Shown piece after piece: positions 3,734 through 17,098 of a DNA stretch of 64,000 nt. The position numbers were made by a program, and so were the translations under genes. The stretch spans positions 50,833 to 114,832 of the forward strand of contig CAJFGR010000010.1 in NCBI GenBank assembly GCA_904377845.1, read 5' to 3'. The notes under the pieces are model-generated. The model made no database searches, was not told the origin of the DNA, and worked only from the letters and a program-made list of their open reading frames with translations. The stretch comes from an uncultured Ruminococcus sp. (GTDB lineage: Bacteria > Bacillota > Clostridia > Lachnospirales > Lachnospiraceae). Position 1 is the stretch's first letter; every line of letters starts with the position of its first letter.

Positions 3734-3753
3734 ATTTACATAGAAAAAACATC

Positions 3754-3825
3754 GCGTACTTATATAGGTTCATAATCGGGTGAACGTCTCTACCAGCCGC
3801 CGGAAACGGCTGACTATAAGTATGC
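3754..3825 (+). promoter_or_regulatory. purine riboswitch-like aptamer (guanine/xanthine type, C at the specificity position)
   Basis: P1 gcguacuuaua/uauaaguaugc; P2 GUUCA/UGAAC; J2/3 GUCUCUACC (xpt: GUUUCUACC); L3 CCGGAAA (xpt: CCGUAAA); J3/1 UGACUAUA. It lies between a promoter and guanine deaminase. Confidence 0.8.
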
Positions 3826-3871
3826 CGGAGAGATGGGCACATCATCCGGTATATGAGAGAGGAGGCAAGAC

Positions 3872-5158
3872 TTGATGAATGAATCTATTTTTATTTTAAA
3901 AGGAAATATTATCTACAGTAAAAGCCAGACAGAGTTTGCTATTTGCGAACATGGATATCTTGTCTGTAAAGACGGCAGAGTGGACGGGATTTATCAGACA
4001 CTGCCGTTCAGGCTGGGAGGCAATCCGATCCGGGATTACGGCGATTGTCTTATCATCCCGGGACTTGTGGATCTTCATATCCATGCGCCGCAGTATTCCT
4101 ACCGGGGACTTGGGATGGATATGGAACTTCTGGAGTGGCTTGAGGTAAATACGTTCCCGGAGGAGGCTAAATTCGAAGAAACTGATTATGCGGAGAAGTC
4201 CTACTGGATCTTTACGGAGAATCTTAAGAACAGTGCTACGACGAGAGCCTGTATCTTTGCCACGGTGCACCGTCCGGCAACACTTCTTCTTATGGATTTG
4301 CTGGAGAAGAGCGGACTTGACACCTATGTGGGCAAAGTAAATATGGACCGCAACTGTCCGGATTATATCTGTGAGGAGACGCAGGAGTCGGCAGATGAGA
4401 CGCTGGAGTGGATCAAGGATGTAAACCATCGAAAATACAAGAATACAAAGCCAATTCTTACACCGCGGTTCACGCCGAGCTGTACGGATGAACTGATGGA
4501 AGAACTGAAGAAACTGCAGATGCGCTATGCTCTGCCTGTACAGTCACATTTGTCGGAAAATCCGGGTGAGATTGAGTGGGTAAAAGAACTCTGTCCGTGG
4601 TCGGAATTCTATGGAGATGTGTATGACCGGTTCGGACTGTTCGGAGCTGACTGCCCGACCATTATGGCGCACTGCGTATACAGCGGCGATGAAGAGATCG
4701 CACGGATGAAAGAGAACGGTGTGTTTGTCGCTCATTGCCCGGAGTCCAATATGAATGTGTCATCCGGAATCGCTCCGGTCAGGAAATTCCTTGAAGAAGG
4801 TCTGCACGTGGGAATCGGAAGTGATGTGGCAGGCGGCTCCACGGAAAATCTGTTCCGCGCCATGGCTCATGCCGTACAGTCGTCAAAACTGCGGTGGAGA
4901 TTACAGGATAACAGTCTGGAAGCGCTGACCGCTGAGGAAGTGTTCTATATGGCTACAAAAGGCGGCGGAGAGTTTTTCGGAAAAGTGGGAAGTTTTGAGC
5001 CGGGATATGAGTTTGACGCGGTAGTGCTGGATGACAGCCGTCTGAAGCATCCGCAGCCGCTTGATATCAGGAGCCGGCTGGAACGTATGATATATCTGGC
5101 GGACGAACGGGAGATCAGGGCCAAATACGTAAAAGGGAAAGAAATCAGTCTGCCGTAA
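3872..5158 (+). CDS. guaD: guanine deaminase / amidohydrolase
   Basis: PGLVDLHIHAPQYSYRGLGMDMELLEWL, HLSENPGEIEWV, GSDVAGGSTENLFRAM. Confidence 0.9.
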   Translation: MMNESIFILKGNIIYSKSQTEFAICEHGYLVCKDGRVDGIYQTLPFRLGGNPIRDYGDCLIIPGLVDLHIHAPQYSYRGLGMDMELLEWLEVNTFPEEAKFEETDYAEKSYWIFTENLKNSATTRACIFATVHRPATLLLMDLLEKSGLDTYVGKVNMDRNCPDYICEETQESADETLEWIKDVNHRKYKNTKPILTPRFTPSCTDELMEELKKLQMRYALPVQSHLSENPGEIEWVKELCPWSEFYGDVYDRFGLFGADCPTIMAHCVYSGDEEIARMKENGVFVAHCPESNMNVSSGIAPVRKFLEEGLHVGIGSDVAGGSTENLFRAMAHAVQSSKLRWRLQDNSLEALTAEEVFYMATKGGGEFFGKVGSFEPGYEFDAVVLDDSRLKHPQPLDIRSRLERMIYLADEREIRAKYVKGKEISLP

Positions 5159-9100: not shown

Positions 9101-10045
9101 TTAAAGATGGATTCTTGTGCCGGTCTTGCCGAGTATTCCGTCTTTTGCTTTCTCAAGCAGCGTGATTAGCGCCTGTCTTCCCGGTTTGGATTCTGCGAAA
9201 TCTACGGCTGCCTGAACTTTCGGAAGCATGGAACCCGGTGCGAAATGCCCTTCGTCTATGTACTGCTTCGCCTCGGCAACTGTGATGTCGTCCAGCCATT
9301 TTTCATCCGGCTTTCCGTAATTGATCGCAACTTTTTCAACGGCAGTCAGAATGATAAGGAAATCAGCGTCCAGCTCTTTTGCCATCAGGCAGCTCGCGAA
9401 GTCCTTGTCAATGACAGCGCTGGCGCCTTTTAAGTGATTGCCCTGACGTGTGACGGGGATACCGCCTCCGCCGCAGGCGATGACTACGTCGCCGGAGTCC
9501 ACCATATTGCGGATCGTTCCGATCTCAATGATCTCCTGCGGTTTCGGGGATGCAACCACACGGCGGTAGCCGCGGCCTGCATCTTCTTTCATGATGTAGT
9601 CATATTTCTCGGTCATGATATCAGCCTGTTCCTTTGTCATAAAGCGGCCGATGGGTTTGGACGGGTGGTCAAATGCCGGGTCATCGGGATCGACACGCAC
9701 CTGTGTGATCATGGTAGCCACCGGAATATCCGTGATCCCTCTGTTTAAGAGCTCTTCGCGGAGTGCATTCTGCAGGTCATATCCGATATATGCCTGGCTC
9801 ATGGCAACACAGACAGACAACGGTGTGTTCGGCTGATGCGGATCCTCGTGTGTGAGGGCGATCATAGCGTTGTTGACCATGCCCACCTGAGGTCCGTTTC
9901 CGTGAGCAACCACGACCTCGCATCCCTCCTGTATCAGATCGACGATAGCGCGGGAAGTGATCTTAACGGCCTTCATCTGCTCCGGCAGAGTATTGCCGAG
10001 GGCATTCCCGCCCAGGGCAATAACGATACGTTTTTTCTTTTCCAT
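9101..10045 (-). CDS. arcC: carbamate kinase
   Basis: RIVIALGGNALGNTLPEQM, VVVAHGNGPQVG, VIACGGGGIPV. Confidence 0.95.
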   Translation of the reverse strand: MEKKKRIVIALGGNALGNTLPEQMKAVKITSRAIVDLIQEGCEVVVAHGNGPQVGMVNNAMIALTHEDPHQPNTPLSVCVAMSQAYIGYDLQNALREELLNRGITDIPVATMITQVRVDPDDPAFDHPSKPIGRFMTKEQADIMTEKYDYIMKEDAGRGYRRVVASPKPQEIIEIGTIRNMVDSGDVVIACGGGGIPVTRQGNHLKGASAVIDKDFASCLMAKELDADFLIILTAVEKVAINYGKPDEKWLDDITVAEAKQYIDEGHFAPGSMLPKVQAAVDFAESKPGRQALITLLEKAKDGILGKTGTRIHL

Positions 10046-10062
10046 AAACTGCCTCCTTGGGA

Positions 10063-10446
10063 TCAGCCCTCTTTTACAGCGGCGATGGCCTCTACCTCGC
10101 AGAGCACTCCCTTCGGAAGAGCTTTGACAGCGACGCAGGAGCGTGCCGGTTTGCCGGTGAAGTATTTCGCATAGATTTCATTGAATGCTGCAAAGTCAGC
10201 CATATCTGCGAGGAAGCAGGTTGTCTTTACAACGTCTGTAAATGCAGCTCCCTGACTTTCCAGAAGAGCGCCTACATTTTTCATAACCTGTTCCGCCTGC
10301 TCTTCAATAGTAGTACCGACTACTTCACCTGTCTCCGGTGAGAGCGGGATCTGGCCTGAGAAAAATGCGATTCCGTTTAGGACGATTCCCTGTGAGTACG
10401 GTCCGATTGCTGCAGGTGCGTTTTTTGTGTCAACATATTTTAACAT
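10063..10446 (-). CDS. ridA: RidA family enamine/imine deaminase
   Basis: APAAIGPYSQGIVLNGIAFFSGQIPLSPETGE..ARSCVAVKALPKGVLCEVEAIA. Confidence 0.95.
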   Translation of the reverse strand: MLKYVDTKNAPAAIGPYSQGIVLNGIAFFSGQIPLSPETGEVVGTTIEEQAEQVMKNVGALLESQGAAFTDVVKTTCFLADMADFAAFNEIYAKYFTGKPARSCVAVKALPKGVLCEVEAIAAVKEG

Positions 10447-10530
10447 GATGTAAATACCTCCTGATGATTCTTTTTTAGATTAGTAACTGTTCAGTCCGTT
10501 CAGCCTGCGCCATTCGTAAAGCTGCAATTT

Positions 10531-11724
10531 CTATTTGAAAACTCTCGGTGTTGCTTTTTCTTCCAGTTTCTTGAGGATGTCAGCCGGATCTGCGAATTTT
10601 GCAAGGAAGATCATAGCTGCGATGATGTACGGTTTGTAGCTTGCCTCTTTGTAGAGCGGATCTCTGTAGCGGTCGAATACGCTTGCGTCAACTTCGCCTT
10701 CCTCACAGCTTACGCCTGTGATGTCAGCCGGCAGACAGTGCATATAGAGAGCTTTGCCGTCTTTTGTAGTCTTCATCAGTTCCTCTGTACAAGCCCAGTC
10801 TTTGTGCTGTGCATTCTGTGCGAGGAGCTCTTTCTCCAGCTCTTTGATGCCCTCGAAGTCGCCGTTCCCGTAGAGCTCTGTGCGTTTCTCCATAGCTGCG
10901 AACGGAGCCCAGCTCTTCGGATATACGATATCGGCGTCTTTGAATGCCTCTGCCATATTGTTTGTCTTTGTAAATGTACCGCCGGATTTCTTTGCGTTTT
11001 CGGCAGCGACAGCTTCAACCTCCGGGAATACCTCGTATCCTTCCGGATGTGCCAGCACAACGTCCATTCCGAAACGTGTCATTAGTCCGATGATTCCCTG
11101 GGGAACGGAGAGCGGTTTGCCGTAGGACGGAGAGTAAGCCCATGACATGGCGATCTTCTTGCCTTTCAGGTTCTCGACTCCGCCGAACTCATGGATGATG
11201 TGGAGCATATCAGCCATGGCCTGTGTCGGGTGGTCGATGTCGCACTGCAGGTTGACAAGCGTCGGTTTCTGCTCAAGGATGCCGTCTTTGTTTCCCTGTG
11301 TCACGGCGTCAACAACTTCGTGCATATAAGCGTTTCCTTTGCCGATGTACATATCGTCGCGGATACCGATAACGTCAGCCATGAAAGAGATCATGTTTGC
11401 TGTCTCGCGGACGGTCTCGCCGTGTGCAACCTGGGATTTCCCTTCGTCCAGATCCTGAACCTCAAGACCTAACAGGTTACATGCGGATGCAAATGAGAAA
11501 CGTGTACGCGTGGAGTTGTCGCGGAACAGTGAGATTCCGAGGCCGCTCTCGAAAACTTTTGTAGAGATATTGTTTTCTCTCATGTAGCGGAGAGCATCGG
11601 CTACTGTAAATACAGCTTCCAGCTCATCGTCTGTCTTCTCCCATGTGAGGAAGAAGTCTCCGTTGTACATATCCTTAAAGTTCAGGGCGTTCAGTTTGTC
11701 GATATAATCCTGTAAAGTTTTCAT
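10531..11724 (-). CDS. ygeW: knotted carbamoyltransferase YgeW
   Basis: FRDNSTRTRFSFASACNLLGLEVQDLDEGKSQVAHGETVRETANMISFMADVIGIRDD; LYMHCLPADI. Confidence 0.95.
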   Translation of the reverse strand: MKTLQDYIDKLNALNFKDMYNGDFFLTWEKTDDELEAVFTVADALRYMRENNISTKVFESGLGISLFRDNSTRTRFSFASACNLLGLEVQDLDEGKSQVAHGETVRETANMISFMADVIGIRDDMYIGKGNAYMHEVVDAVTQGNKDGILEQKPTLVNLQCDIDHPTQAMADMLHIIHEFGGVENLKGKKIAMSWAYSPSYGKPLSVPQGIIGLMTRFGMDVVLAHPEGYEVFPEVEAVAAENAKKSGGTFTKTNNMAEAFKDADIVYPKSWAPFAAMEKRTELYGNGDFEGIKELEKELLAQNAQHKDWACTEELMKTTKDGKALYMHCLPADITGVSCEEGEVDASVFDRYRDPLYKEASYKPYIIAAMIFLAKFADPADILKKLEEKATPRVFK

Positions 11725-11795
11725 TCTTTATTTGTCCTCCTTGATATAAATGAAATTAAAATTACTTCCTGAAAATTATAACAGTTTAACCCATG

Positions 11796-13106
11796 TTATT
11801 CGCAGTAGCAGTTCGGCAGTGCAGCATATACAGCAGCGCAAGTTACAAGATCCTGTTTCCATGTCTTCTCATTCGGAGCGTGTGCCTGAGCCTCAGCGCC
11901 CGGTCCGAATCCGATGCACGGAATTCCGTTTCTTCCCATAATGGACACGCCGTTTGTGGAGAAGGTCCATTTGTCTGTAAGCGGACGGCTCTGACGCATT
12001 TCCAGTGTCTCGGGAGCGCCGATTCTCTTGTCTCCATAGAGAGAAGTGTAGGCTTTTTCAAGAGCTTTTGTTACCTTGTGGTCTTTCGGGATCGCCCATG
12101 TCGGGAAGTAGCACTCGATCTCGTATACGCATCCTGTGTAGGACGGACGGTCATAGTTGTACATGGATACGACTACATCATCGCCGTATTTCTGTACGCT
12201 CGGCAGAGCACGGATCTCATCCAGGCAGCTCTCCCATGTCTCGCCGAATGTCATGCGGCGGTCAAGTGATACTGCGCAGGAATCAGCTACCGCACAGCGG
12301 CTCGGGGATGTGTAGAAGATCTGGGATACGGTAACTGTACCGCGTCCGAGGAAGCGAGCTTCCTCCCAGTCCGGATTGTATTTCGGATTTAACATTTTCA
12401 CAAGACCTTTGATCTCTGTCTCGTCTGCGTCATCGTTCTCGTTGAGAGCGCGCACATCCTGAAGGATGTCGGCCATCTTGTAGATCGCATTGTCGCCGCG
12501 TTCCGGAGCGGAACCGTGGCAGGAAACGCCTTTGACGTCGATGCGGATTTCCATACGTCCGCGCTGTCCGCGGTAGATACCGCCGTCTGTCGGCTCTGTG
12601 GATACGACAAATTCCGGACGGATCTTGTCCTCATTGATGATGTACTGCCAGCACAGGCCGTCGCAGTCTTCTTCCTGAACTGTTCCTACGACCATGATCT
12701 TGCATCCTTCCGGGATCAGATCCATGTCTTTCATGATCCTTGCACCGTAAACTGCGGATACAAGACCTCCGCACTGGTCGGATACCCCGCGCCCTCCGAT
12801 CTCTGTGTCGTTCTCGTATCCCTCATACGGATCAAAGTCCCAGTTGTCGATATTTCCGATACCTACTGTGTCGATATGTGCATCGTATGCGATGATCTTA
12901 TCGCCTGTTCCCATGTAGCCGATGACATTTCCCTGAGGATCGATAACGACCTCGTCGAAGTCCAGTTTCTTCATCTCAGCAGAGATCGTGTCAATATGTG
13001 CTTTCTCATCGCAGCTCTCGCCCGGATTCTTCACGATAGCGCGAAGAAATGCGGTCATGTCTTTCTGATAACCCTGTGCAGCTTCTTTGATTTTGTTGAA
13101 GTCCAT
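11796..13106 (-). CDS. ygeY: YgeY family selenium metabolism-linked M20 hydrolase
   Basis: [49 protein letters not shown]. Start placed at ATG 13106 (MDFNKIKE). Confidence 0.93.
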
Positions 13107-13199
13107 AGTTGTAATCTCCTTTCCTTGTTTGCGCCGTGGTTTACACGACATGGTGGTACACCCCTGCGGTGTTTTGAAAATGTTATGAGTGTGTTTCAT

Positions 13200-13239
13200 C
13201 AGGCGCCGGACCGCGGAGGGCGCGGGTCCGGACTGCCTG
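13200..13239 (-). other. GC-rich hairpin in the ygeX-ygeY intergenic region
   Basis: CAGGCgCCGGACC...GGTCCGGacTGCCTG stem. Confidence 0.55.
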
Positions 13240-13287
13240 ACCGGAATAATTAATTGATTAGTTTCGTATTTATATGGAACAGACTGT

Positions 13288-14493
13288 CTATCTGTCGTTC
13301 CCGCCCCAGACGATGGATTCGTATCTTTCGGGATCTGTGTCACCTTCGGTGGAGAAGAGGAGTACTTTCGAATTCTCGTCCAGTCCGAGATGCTCTCTCA
13401 GCGGCCGGTACTCGTCCATTGTCATGATGCAGGCAAGTGTTCCGAAGGGCGCGGCGCCGGACTCGCCGGATGTCACCGGCTGATCGCCTTTCACCGGAGC
13501 GGCCAGCATACGCATACCCCTTGCAGCCACCCAGTCAGGTGATGCTACAAACGTATCTACATGATTTTTCAGAATATCCCATGAAATAGTATTCGGTTCA
13601 CCGCAGGCAAGTCCTGCCATGATCGTTACCATATCTCCGTCTACGATGCGGATATCTCCGTCTCCTGCGCAGGCGCCTTTGTACAGGCAGGCAGCAGCTT
13701 CGGCTTCTACTACGATCACTTTCGGAGGATTCTCGGGATAGCGGTTTGCAAAATATCCCTGAACGGCTCCTGCAAGAGATCCGACACCGGCCTGAATGAA
13801 TACGTGGGTCGGACGCTCACAGTCATAGCCATGGAGCTGCTCGTCCGCTTCCATTGCCATCGTTCCGTAACCCTGCATGATCCATGAAGGAATTTCCTCA
13901 TATCCGTCCCAGGCGGTATCCTGAACCATGACGCCGTTTTCTGTTTTTTCCGCCATGGCATTTGCCATACGGACACATTCATCATAATTGTATTCCTCGA
14001 TGGTCGCCTGTGCGCCTTCTGCAAGGATATTGTTCAGTCTGGTCTGTGTACTTCCCTTCGGCATGAGGACAACGGCTTTCTGGCCCAGTTTATTGGCAGC
14101 CCATGCAACGCCGCGTCCGTGGTTGCCGTCTGTGGCTGTAAAGAATGTAGCCTGTCCGAACTCCTTTTTCAGCTCCTCGGAAGTGAGCACGTTGTAGGGA
14201 AGCTCGGAGACGTCTTTGCCGGTCTGCTTCGCTATGTAGCGCGCCATGGCGAATGAACCGCCGAGCACTTTGAAAGCATTGAGCCCGAAACGATAAGACT
14301 CATCTTTGACATACACTTCTCCCAGCCCGAGGCGCGCTGCCATATGATCCAGTTTCACCAGCGGAGTGACGCTGTACTGCGGAAAACTCTCATGGAACGT
14401 GCGCGCTTTTCTGACCTCATCCAGCCCCATTACTTTCAGGTTGGAATCCGCTGTCTTCGGCATCTTGTTCACTGCCCATTTGATTGTGTCCAT
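13288..14493 (-). CDS. ygeX: diaminopropionate ammonia-lyase (PLP-dependent)
   Basis: [42 protein letters not shown]. Confidence 0.95.
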
Positions 14494-14543
14494 TGTGGAA
14501 CCTCCTTATAAATATATGAAATGTTATTGATTTACAATATTGA

Positions 14544-14676
14544 GAATATGCCAGCTCGAATCCGCCCCTTCGGGGCTGCTTCTCGCTGATGGCGTCCGCC
14601 ATATGCCGATATCGTCATTATCTGCTGCTTGCAAGCAAGCTTGCACAGCATATACTGCCGATTTCGGCGCATATTC
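14544..14676. repeat. palindrome-rich intergenic element
   Basis: Terminal GAATATGCc / ggCGCATATTC inverted ends; internal hairpins CCCCttcgGGG, atggcGtccGCCAT, gcTGCttgcaagcaagcttGCAcagc. Confidence 0.5.
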
Positions 14677-15322
14677 ATCCTTTGTCCATATAGCTGTATA
14701 GCGTAAACTTTGATATCCCCAGCAGGGATGAGACTTTATCGCCGGATTTTGTGATGAGAAATGCTCCGGCGTTATTCAAATACTGCACTACGGCGACTTT
14801 GTCGTCCTTGTTCATCATCGCGACGGGCTTGCCTACTCTGGCGATTGCCTGTTCGATGAGCTGATCGAGCAGTTCAGTCACATTGTGGGTGATCCTCTGG
14901 GGAGAACCTGAGGTATCATTTCCGTGGCTGTCCTCCGGTTCGGTCTGAACCAGTCCCCGGATCGAGCTCTCTGCTGCGAGAAGGGTAGTGATGTCGTAAT
15001 TCATGGAAAAGATATACACGATCTTCCCTTCTTCATTACGGATATAGAGGGTACTGGATTTCAAGATCCTGCCGTCATCTGTTCTTGTCAGATATGCAAG
15101 TTTGTCCTTGACTTTTCCGGGATCGGATCTCAGTGTCTCAAGTACAATGCCTGACGGGCCGTCGCCGGTATGGCGGTTGGAAACATGGCCGTTCTCAATA
15201 TAGACGATGGATTTGTCCAGGTCTTTTTTTGTCAGATCGTGGATGACGACTTCGCAGGAATTCCCGAACTGGGCTGCAAGTCCGTGTGCAAGCTGCTTAA
15301 GAAAATGAAGTTTCTGCTCCAT
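14675..15322 (-). CDS. YheO/DauR-like PAS + HTH transcriptional regulator
   Basis: MEQKLHFLKQLAHGLAAQFGNSCEVVIHDL..SIVYIENGHVSNRHTGD; C-terminal KFTLYSYMDKG HTH. Start placed at ATG 15322. Confidence 0.85.
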   Translation of the reverse strand: MEQKLHFLKQLAHGLAAQFGNSCEVVIHDLTKKDLDKSIVYIENGHVSNRHTGDGPSGIVLETLRSDPGKVKDKLAYLTRTDDGRILKSSTLYIRNEEGKIVYIFSMNYDITTLLAAESSIRGLVQTEPEDSHGNDTSGSPQRITHNVTELLDQLIEQAIARVGKPVAMMNKDDKVAVVQYLNNAGAFLITKSGDKVSSLLGISKFTLYSYMDKG

Positions 15323-15371
15323 TGCTTCACCTGCCTTTTGGTAAGCTTGTCTGTCGTGTGTCTCTAAACCC

Positions 15372-15399
15372 ATCATAGCATAAAAAAACACAGAGTCAA
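15372..15399 (-). promoter_or_regulatory. promoter of the PAS/HTH regulator
   Basis: Minus strand TTGACT-N16-TATGAT with extended TGC just before the -10. Confidence 0.7.
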
Positions 15400-15407
15400 T
15401 ACTTTTT

Positions 15408-15422
15408 CTAAAAAATTTTTAG
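15408..15422. promoter_or_regulatory. operator palindrome O1
   Basis: CTAAAAAATTTTTAG; 8 bp from the -35 of the regulator promoter. Confidence 0.75.
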
Positions 15423-15427
15423 GCAAT

Positions 15428-15442
15428 CTAAAAAATATTTAG
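15428..15442. promoter_or_regulatory. operator palindrome O2
   Basis: CTAAAAAATATTTAG; 20 bp from O1. Confidence 0.75.
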
Positions 15443-15470
15443 GAATGCTGCTCAAGCGACAAAAATGATG

Positions 15471-15499
15471 TTGACGGACGTGTAAAAAAAGGTTATATT
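15471..15499 (+). promoter_or_regulatory. strong sigma70-like promoter for a short leader transcript
   Basis: TTGACG-N17-TATATT. Confidence 0.55.
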
Positions 15500-15513
15500 A
15501 ACTCACGAAGCAA

Positions 15514-15543
15514 GGCGCTTGATTTACGGATCAGGCGCCTTTT
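15514..15543 (+). terminator. intrinsic terminator between the two operator pairs
   Basis: GGCGCttGATttacggATCaGGCGCCTTTT. Confidence 0.7.
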
Positions 15544-15597
15544 CGCATATATAAATATTTTAATCTGCGCAGGATTTTAAACACTGTTTTTGAATAC

Positions 15598-15612
15598 CTA
15601 AAAATTTTTTAG
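15598..15612. promoter_or_regulatory. operator palindrome O3
   Basis: CTAAAAATTTTTTAG. Confidence 0.75.
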
Positions 15613-15617
15613 ATGCT

Positions 15618-15632
15618 CTAAAAATTATTTAG
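15618..15632. promoter_or_regulatory. operator palindrome O4
   Basis: CTAAAAATTATTTAG; 20 bp from O3 and 8 bp from the ssnA -35. Confidence 0.75.
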
Positions 15633-15640
15633 AATTCATA

Positions 15641-15669
15641 TTGCATTTATACAATATTAATGGTATTCT
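15641..15669 (+). promoter_or_regulatory. ssnA operon promoter
   Basis: TTGCAT-N17-TATTCT with extended -10 TGG. Confidence 0.6.
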
Positions 15670-15766
15670 ATAATCAGTGACAGGGCTTAGTGTGCGATTT
15701 GCACAGTAATCTGCAAAAGCGCATTGAGAACAGTATGTGGAAAATAAATAAAAAGGAGTAATTAAT

Positions 15767-17098
15767 ATGCTGGTTTTAGGTAATGGAAAAGTTATCACAA
15801 GAGATGCTGCATATCCGCTGATCGAGAATGGCGCAGTCGCGATCGACGGCACTACAATCTGTAAAGTGGGCTCCTCGGAGGAGGTAAGAAACGCATATCC
15901 TGATGCAGAGTACATCGATGCCAAAGGCGGCCTGATTATGCCCGGCTTTATCAATGTACACGAGCATATTTACAGTGCGTTTGCAAGAGGGCTTTCCATA
16001 AAGGGCTACGATCCGAAAGGATTTCTTGACATCCTTGACGGACAGTGGTGGACGATCGACCGCAATCTTACACTGCATGATACATATTTAAGTGCTATGG
16101 CTACTTATATTGACTGCATCAGAAACGGTGTGACAACGATCTTTGACCACCACGCAAGTTTCGGCTCGATCAGGGGCTCTCTTTTTGAGATTGAGAAAGC
16201 GGCTAAAGAGACCGGAGTGCGGTCCTGTCTCTGCTATGAGATCTCAGACAGAGACGGGATGGACAAGGCAAGAGAGTCTGTTATGGAGAATGCAGAGTTT
16301 ATCCGCCACGCGCTTCAGGATGATTCCGGGATGATCGCGGGAATGATGGGGATGCACGCGCAGTTTACGATCTCTGATGAAACGATGGAATTGGCGGCTG
16401 CCAATAAGCCGGATGAAGTGGGATATCACATTCATGTGGCCGAGGGGATCGAAGACCTGCATCACTGCCTGAAGCATTACGGGAAACGGATCGTTGACCG
16501 TCTGATGGACCACGGCATCCTCGGAGAAAAGACGCTTCTGGGACACTGCATTTACATTAATTCGCATGAGATGGACTTAATTAAGGAAACGGATACTATG
16601 GTGGTCCACAATCCGGAGTCCAATATGGGCAATGCGTGCGGATGCCCGCCGACGATGGAGCTGGTGCACCGGGGAATCCTCACCGGTCTCGGCACGGACG
16701 GATATACGCATGATATGATGGAATCATGGAAAGTGGCGAACATTCTGCACAAACATCATCTCTGCGATCCGAATGCGGCATGGGGCGAAGTGCCGCAGAT
16801 GCTCTTCGAGAACAATGCGAAGATTGCCGGAAGGTACTTCAAGCAGGAGCTGGGCGTCCTGAAAGAAGGCGCGGCAGGAGATGTGATCATCGTTGACTAT
16901 GATCCGCTTACCCCGATGAATGAAAATAATATAAACAGCCATCTTTTATTCGGAGTAACCGGACATGACGTGATTACGACAGTGGCAAACGGCGAAGTCC
17001 TGATGAAAGACAGAAGGCTTACGAAGATCGATACGGCCAAAGTGATGGCCGACTGCAGACAGGCGGCGAAAGAGCTTGCCGGGCGGATCAACGGTTAA
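15767..17098 (+). CDS. ssnA: putative aminohydrolase SsnA
   Basis: GLIMPGFINVHEHIYSAFARGLS..GLGTDGYTHDMMESWKVANILHKH. Confidence 0.95.
   Translation: MLVLGNGKVITRDAAYPLIENGAVAIDGTTICKVGSSEEVRNAYPDAEYIDAKGGLIMPGFINVHEHIYSAFARGLSIKGYDPKGFLDILDGQWWTIDRNLTLHDTYLSAMATYIDCIRNGVTTIFDHHASFGSIRGSLFEIEKAAKETGVRSCLCYEISDRDGMDKARESVMENAEFIRHALQDDSGMIAGMMGMHAQFTISDETMELAAANKPDEVGYHIHVAEGIEDLHHCLKHYGKRIVDRLMDHGILGEKTLLGHCIYINSHEMDLIKETDTMVVHNPESNMGNACGCPPTMELVHRGILTGLGTDGYTHDMMESWKVANILHKHHLCDPNAAWGEVPQMLFENNAKIAGRYFKQELGVLKEGAAGDVIIVDYDPLTPMNENNINSHLLFGVTGHDVITTVANGEVLMKDRRLTKIDTAKVMADCRQAAKELAGRING

Follow-up and report, generated by a model that had tools for sequence, protein, structure and literature searches.

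Breakdown of urate by gut bacteria bears on host urate and on gout. The enzymes SsnA, YgfK, YgeW and YgeY and that encoded by dpaL belong to a reductive urate pathway, worked out in 2025, in which urate is converted to yanthine, the ring is opened by YgfK/SsnA, and 2,3-diureidopropionate is then converted by way of albizziin and 2,3-diaminopropionate to pyruvate (PMC12507026). The word 'regulator' is absent from that report, and in its engineered strain the native control region was replaced by other promoters; in the open literature we found no paper on a regulator of a gut urate cluster or on a PAS_6 operator. The E. coli reductive urate cluster with YgeV (PMC12507026) and the cluster examined here have in common SsnA, YgfK, YgeW, YgeY, diaminopropionate lyase, and HyuA-type and Xdh-type genes. 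However, for the E. coli cluster a Crp site between ygeV and ygeW is reported, and YgeV as the urate-associated regulator, whereas here a PAS_6/HTH_22 protein occupies that place.

Paired palindromes between two divergent operons

The window, by which we mean the whole stretch of 64,000 nucleotides analysed, carries its urate genes in two divergent operons. The features on which the analysis turns are as follows.

9101 to 14493, minus strand: remainder of the left operon, comprising dpaL (13288-14493), ygeY, ygeW, a RidA-like ORF and a carbamate-kinase-like ORF (ORF list; NCBIfam for dpaL, ygeY and ygeW)
14675 to 15322, minus strand: PAS_6 + HTH_22 regulator, 215 aa, first gene of the left operon (Pfam PF08348, E = 2.9e-36; PF13309, E = 2.2e-21)
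15372 to 15399, minus strand (read from 15399 to 15372): putative regulator promoter, TTGACT-N16-TATGAT with a TG extension (promoter scan; TTGA at 8 bp kept in 54 aligned loci)
15408 to 15422, no strand: operator 1, CTAAAAAATTTTTAG, regulator-proximal (pattern scan, genome scan, 54-locus alignment)
15428 to 15442, no strand: operator 2, CTAAAAAATATTTAG (pattern scan, genome scan, 54-locus alignment)
15598 to 15612, no strand: operator 3, CTAAAAATTTTTTAG (pattern scan, genome scan)
15618 to 15632, no strand: operator 4, CTAAAAATTATTTAG, ssnA-proximal (pattern scan, genome scan, 54-locus alignment)
15641 to 15669, plus strand: putative ssnA promoter, TTGCAT (15641-15646)-N17-TATTCT (15664-15669) with a TGG extension (direct reading; 8-bp operator distance conserved)
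15691 to 15705, plus strand: additional conserved palindrome TGTGCGATTTGCACA (TGTGCGAWWTGCACA) in the ssnA 5' untranslated region (comparison among relatives)
15767 to 17098, plus strand: ssnA, first gene of the right operon, which continues with an NCS2 permease gene, ygfK and further co-directional genes (NCBIfam SsnA, NCS2, YgfK)

The minus-strand run regulator-dpaL-ygeY-ygeW-ridA-arcC extends to position 9101 with the regulator leading; the product of dpaL is a diaminopropionate ammonia-lyase, and the RidA-like and carbamate-kinase-like ORFs are named from sequence only. As the regulator heads the left operon and ssnA the right, both arms of the pathway start at the interval between them, which looks like a bidirectional control region of a reductive urate-degradation cluster serving both arms. 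The gap between regulator and dpaL (14494-14674, ~180 nt) is rich in hairpins, and the distance from regulator start to dpaL start varies among relatives from about 0.65 to 0.98 kb. The same cluster holds a purine riboswitch (3740-3836; Rfam RF00167, 57 bits), which precedes an amidohydrolase ORF starting at 3872.

We found four CTAAA-N5-TTTAG palindromes of 15 bp each in this interval, starting at 15408, 15428, 15598 and 15618 and thus forming two pairs with an exact spacing of 20 bp. When up to two mismatches are allowed, the pattern scores 8 strand-hits, from 4 sites, in the window where 0.58 would be expected; none of 100 shuffles reached 8, and the only exact CTAAAWWWWWTTTAG sites in the 2.76-Mb genome are these four; the scan of that genome found no further exact CTAAAWWWWWTTTAG site that would mark a wider regulon. 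The nearest palindrome lies exactly 8 bp from the -35 box at both the regulator and the ssnA promoter, although an alternative -10, TATAAT (15669-15674), overlaps the TATTCT of the latter and could shift the ssnA start ~5 nt downstream. A preliminary description of this DNA had reported the four palindromes with their positions and spacings, their distance to TTGACT-N16-TATGAT and TTGCAT-N17-TATTCT, and a PAS/HTH regulator and ssnA as divergent neighbours, and had proposed a genome scan for the palindrome; re-reading, the shuffle test, the genome scan, Pfam (PAS_6 and HTH_22) and NCBIfam (SsnA) bear it out in all these respects. It had also described the array as mirror-symmetric. We reject that description, because the two pairs, read in the regulator orientation as CTAAATA...-5 bp-CTAAAAA..., are direct copies of each other and most relatives have a single pair; 'mirror' fits nothing but the two promoters that flank the array.

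The additional palindrome at 15691-15705, of which the genome holds a single exact copy, would lie about 15-30 nt into the ssnA transcript and is kept in most Mediterraneibacter loci. Another regulator might bind there, or the palindrome might form a small stem in the RNA.

The module was compared across 80 relatives of the regulator with their flanking DNA. A paired palindrome was found upstream of the regulator throughout Mediterraneibacter and also in Faecalicatena, Hungatella and others, with drift towards CAAAAAWWTTTTNG further out. The pair is conserved across 54 aligned loci together with both promoters (-35 and -10 boxes) and the spacings, the start of the -35 at 8 bp in 93-98%, and the 42 single-pair loci keep the frame TCAA-8-site-5-site-8-TTGC exactly, as a 51-bp module. 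The helical phase from operator to -35 is accordingly constant in relatives, the exceptions being one locus with 7 bp (L083) and another with a 19-bp site spacing (L089). When a matrix trained on the window's own genus was applied to 43 outside loci, it recovered the pair in 29, in each case above all 100 dinucleotide shuffles; L089 is a thirtieth. Most loci without the pair also lack the divergent arrangement of urate genes. The preliminary description had staked its claim beforehand on conservation in orthologous intergenic regions, and the claim survives, as the pair is conserved there. As a separate observation, in 43 of 51 loci both palindromes of a pair have the same central base (A or T), and where loci were compared independently the central bases of paired palindromes always change in the same direction (median P = 0.06).

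The pair and the adjacent regulator

The regulator has an N-terminal PAS_6 domain (124.3 bits, Pfam cut-off 27) and a C-terminal HTH_22 domain (76.1 bits, cut-off 29.6). An AlphaFold2 model built on an alignment of 32 sequences shows a PAS-like domain followed by C-terminal helices (mean pLDDT 84.5, pTM 0.55); a fold search with this model returned generic LOV/PAS domains as its best PDB matches, and a sequence search of the PDB yielded no chain similar to the regulator. Among regulators of this type, DauR and DguR of Pseudomonas each control an adjacent catabolic gene set; D-arginine and D-glutamate are their reported signals, and one of the two represses while the other activates. Because these relatives sense D-amino acids, we would prefer an amino-acid-like intermediate (2,3-diureidopropionate, albizziin or 2,3-diaminopropionate) over urate itself as the ligand, by analogy. 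The activation and the purine ligand put forward in the preliminary description were guesses.

Gene order in relatives speaks to which protein the pair serves. The pair stays with the regulator where the divergent gene differs from ssnA (L105, L110, L113, L123). It is also found apart from the regulator, namely between dpaL and ssnA with the regulator 5 kb off (L109), before a detached ssnA as a weaker match (15.6; L110), and before dpaL unlinked from the regulator (L118, L124). In another family, with a regulator 52% identical, it again lies between regulator and ssnA (L038). By comparison, among 20 upstream regions of paralogues or second copies that were scored, 19 reached 8 or less and one alone (L209, 56% identical) reached 11; no comparable pair was found upstream of 19 paralogous or distant regulators, nearly all of them 30-43% identical. 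As the pair tracks the regulator, or detached ssnA or dpaL, and is absent from paralogues, it is very probably the operator of the adjacent PAS_6/HTH_22 orthologue group. The alignment and the matrix search thus support the earlier view of the palindromes as conserved sites tied to the PAS/HTH regulator at a fixed distance from both promoters. A general operator of the PAS_6/HTH_22 family was rejected, since the paralogue upstream regions lack the pair and carry other A-tract repeats instead. Upstream of one set of paralogous PAS_6/HTH_22 regulators (L194-L204, about 40% identical), repeated AACAAAAAGTTTG-like motifs replace the palindrome.

The palindromes might alternatively be mainly intrinsic promoter elements, that is, phased A/T tracts that serve two strong promoters as UP elements or curved DNA, without a protein dedicated to binding them. 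Their A/T-rich core does lie at UP-element distance from both promoters, and the 20-bp phasing would bend DNA. We nevertheless consider this very improbable, as the dyad symmetry and the C...G ends are conserved, with high information at both ends of the matrix, as the palindromes are unique in a genome where A/T-rich promoters abound, and as the pair goes with a single orthologous regulator but not with the paralogues. Set beside an UP element, an A/T-rich segment at about -59 to -38, the palindromes agree in position and core, but the C...G ends and the regulator-specific distribution exceed it.

At a spacing of 20 bp, the two 15-bp palindromes of a pair would face roughly the same side of the helix. 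They are flanked at 8 bp by the -35 boxes of two sigma70-type promoters that point away from each other, one reading regulator-dpaL-ygeY-ygeW-ridA-arcC and the other ssnA-permease-ygfK onwards. Most probably two dimers of the PAS_6/HTH_22 protein occupy the pair, and with a pathway metabolite in the PAS domain this protein would activate both promoters from about -50 and -70, with its own gene thereby part of the loop. We put the probability that the regulator activates both promoters at roughly 0.57. This reading is favoured by the position of the sites, wholly upstream of -35 and nearly invariant in phase to both promoters, by the -35 of ssnA, TTGCAT, which is weak yet conserved, and by the retention of an own pair at each promoter after duplication. 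Autoregulation, as proposed earlier, follows from the anatomy, as the regulator leads one of the two operons, and it holds if the operators act on the promoter of that operon.

Three observations count against activation and fit a ligand-released repressor on the same operators. The regulator promoter (TTGACT, TATGAT, TG extension) is near consensus, looks strong unaided and would suit repression; the PAS_6-HTH protein CfiR is reported to be a repressor (PMC4519771); and the A/T core of the palindromes is UP-like both in composition and in its position at about -58 to -43, so that occupancy would remove promoter strength. Such a repressor, bound at -43 to -78, would exclude RNA polymerase (or its alpha C-terminal domains) from both promoters until freed by a pathway metabolite. 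We regard it as the less likely mode of control, though one to be taken seriously: the sites lie fully upstream of both -35 boxes, near-invariant 8-bp phasing would be superfluous for occlusion, and the ssnA -35 is poor but strictly conserved.

One clade with two pairs and an insert

A single pair common to both promoters is the state in most loci. Two pairs were found in nine, the window among them (the others being L051, L053, L060, L061, L063, L064, L087 and G628); in most of these both pairs are near-perfect and each lies beside its own promoter. In a tree of regulator and ssnA all nine fall within one group of 18 rows (support 94), with at least six changes of state. Two near-identical strain pairs (L050/L051 and L052/L053) differ in a segment of 167 bp that was lost or gained, and within each of them the regulator-side linker is shared, a pattern that fits deletion between direct repeats. 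Because the inserts in the window, L051, L053 and L087 are homologous, we favour one gain and several losses of the two-pair state, with the qualification that the tree is without direction and that short-read assemblies could collapse such repeats. We therefore propose, with the direction inferred, that the ancestral module was a single pair between back-to-back promoters and that the two-pair state belongs to a single clade, within which it has changed repeatedly. In this clade, that of the window, duplication of the pair would have enclosed a 155-bp cassette bearing a promoter and a hairpin, leaving each outer promoter a private pair. This departs from the preliminary description, in which an activator geometry was used twice by design; the second pair and the insert are a clade-limited derivative of one common pair. 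That description also overlooked the promoter-hairpin unit between the pairs, which is made up as follows.

15443 to 15597, plus strand: insert of 155 bp between the two operator pairs, missing from most relatives (comparison of relatives)
15471 to 15499, plus strand: putative insert promoter, TTGACG-N17-TATATT (promoter scan; aligns with CP_ATP-grasp leader promoters)
15512 to 15541, plus strand: strong hairpin followed by a T-rich tail, about 13 nt past the insert -10, a putative terminator or attenuator (fold -22.7 kcal/mol, z = -5.5; covariance model R1)

No second copy of the insert was found in its own genome, and a mobile element was rejected on that ground; no Rfam family matched the regulator-ssnA intergenic region at gathering score. 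The insert promoter was also rejected as a third promoter of the same geometry, since its distance from the pair ranges from 5 bp (L051) to more than 40 bp (L087).

Within the genus, the relatives of the insert are other ssnA inserts and the leaders of a CP_ATP-grasp/Alpha-E operon, to which it is homologous at 76% over about 90 nt (E = 1.9e-10; range 1.9e-10 to 8e-6). A search of 58 genomes with R1 gave 19 strong places, of which 15 are CP_ATP-grasp operons, three are ssnA and one is unassigned. A further 20 matches were weak (E from 8e-6 to 3e-3), and the 16 of these that were examined comprise nine at glnA, five at GSIII, one at amtB and one other; at this threshold about 0.6 chance matches are expected, the E-values being rough. 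The glnA gene of the window's own genome has a promoter-then-hairpin leader as in the insert, with an ANTAR-domain gene downstream. By eye, no consistent ANTAR hexaloop was seen in the hairpin loops. Between promoter and gene, the CP_ATP-grasp/Alpha-E leaders themselves (L138, L139, L142-L154) carry two terminator-like hairpins in succession; they have no Rfam match and are a candidate for an undescribed regulatory leader linked to nitrogen genes.

The insert may therefore be a nitrogen-responsive leader, working or relic. In Clostridium saccharobutylicum, the ANTAR protein NitR antiterminates GS/GOGAT genes on nitrogen limitation (PMC6316151), and by this precedent transcripts from the insert promoter would be antiterminated at nitrogen shortage and read into ssnA, as a layer added in two-pair strains to the substrate control given by the operators. 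The homology to CP_ATP-grasp leaders, the 15 of 16 examined weak matches that precede glnA, GSIII or amtB, and the matching leader of the ANTAR-linked glnA all point this way. The idea is tentative all the same: the insert occurs in few strains and is repeatedly lost or eroded, two inserts (L063, L064) lack the promoter-hairpin unit, the weak matches may partly reflect a terminator sequence common in the genus, and loop sequences vary among R1 matches, the antiterminator structure being putative. More doubtful still is the fuller proposal that the urate control region of one clade captured a nitrogen-status leader between its duplicated pairs, with the operon answering to both a pathway metabolite and nitrogen shortage. 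This clade-specific unit, related to leaders of nitrogen genes, is the more interesting part of the interval.

Comparison with known systems

This operator region has the look of a switch by which bacteria turn urate breakdown on and off. With the operator defined, one candidate regulator identified and a 51-bp module that is conserved, the natural switch can be tested directly; the module offers a native sensor of the urate pathway, and the pair provides a binding-site hypothesis for the common, little-studied PAS_6/HTH_22 family.

The purine genes of Clostridioides difficile with DioR (PMC11448449) resemble the present locus in anaerobic purine catabolism and in having a dedicated, uncharacterised regulator. 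DioR is, however, an enhancer-binding protein, and both regulator and promoter class differ from those in the window (PMC11448449). The clostridial nitrogen leaders under NitR/ANTAR control (PMC6316151) have in common with the insert a hairpin directly after the promoter, as at the glnA beside the ANTAR gene in the window's own genome; the insert, a candidate for such control, differs in its place before a urate operon and in its sporadic occurrence. With the YheO/DauR-type PAS_6-HTH_22 regulators (DauR, DguR, CfiR), the window's regulator shares the domain order, PAS_6 then HTH_22. Whereas CfiR of Campylobacter jejuni represses the adjacent downstream gene, the window has paired palindromes common to two divergent urate-degradation operons.
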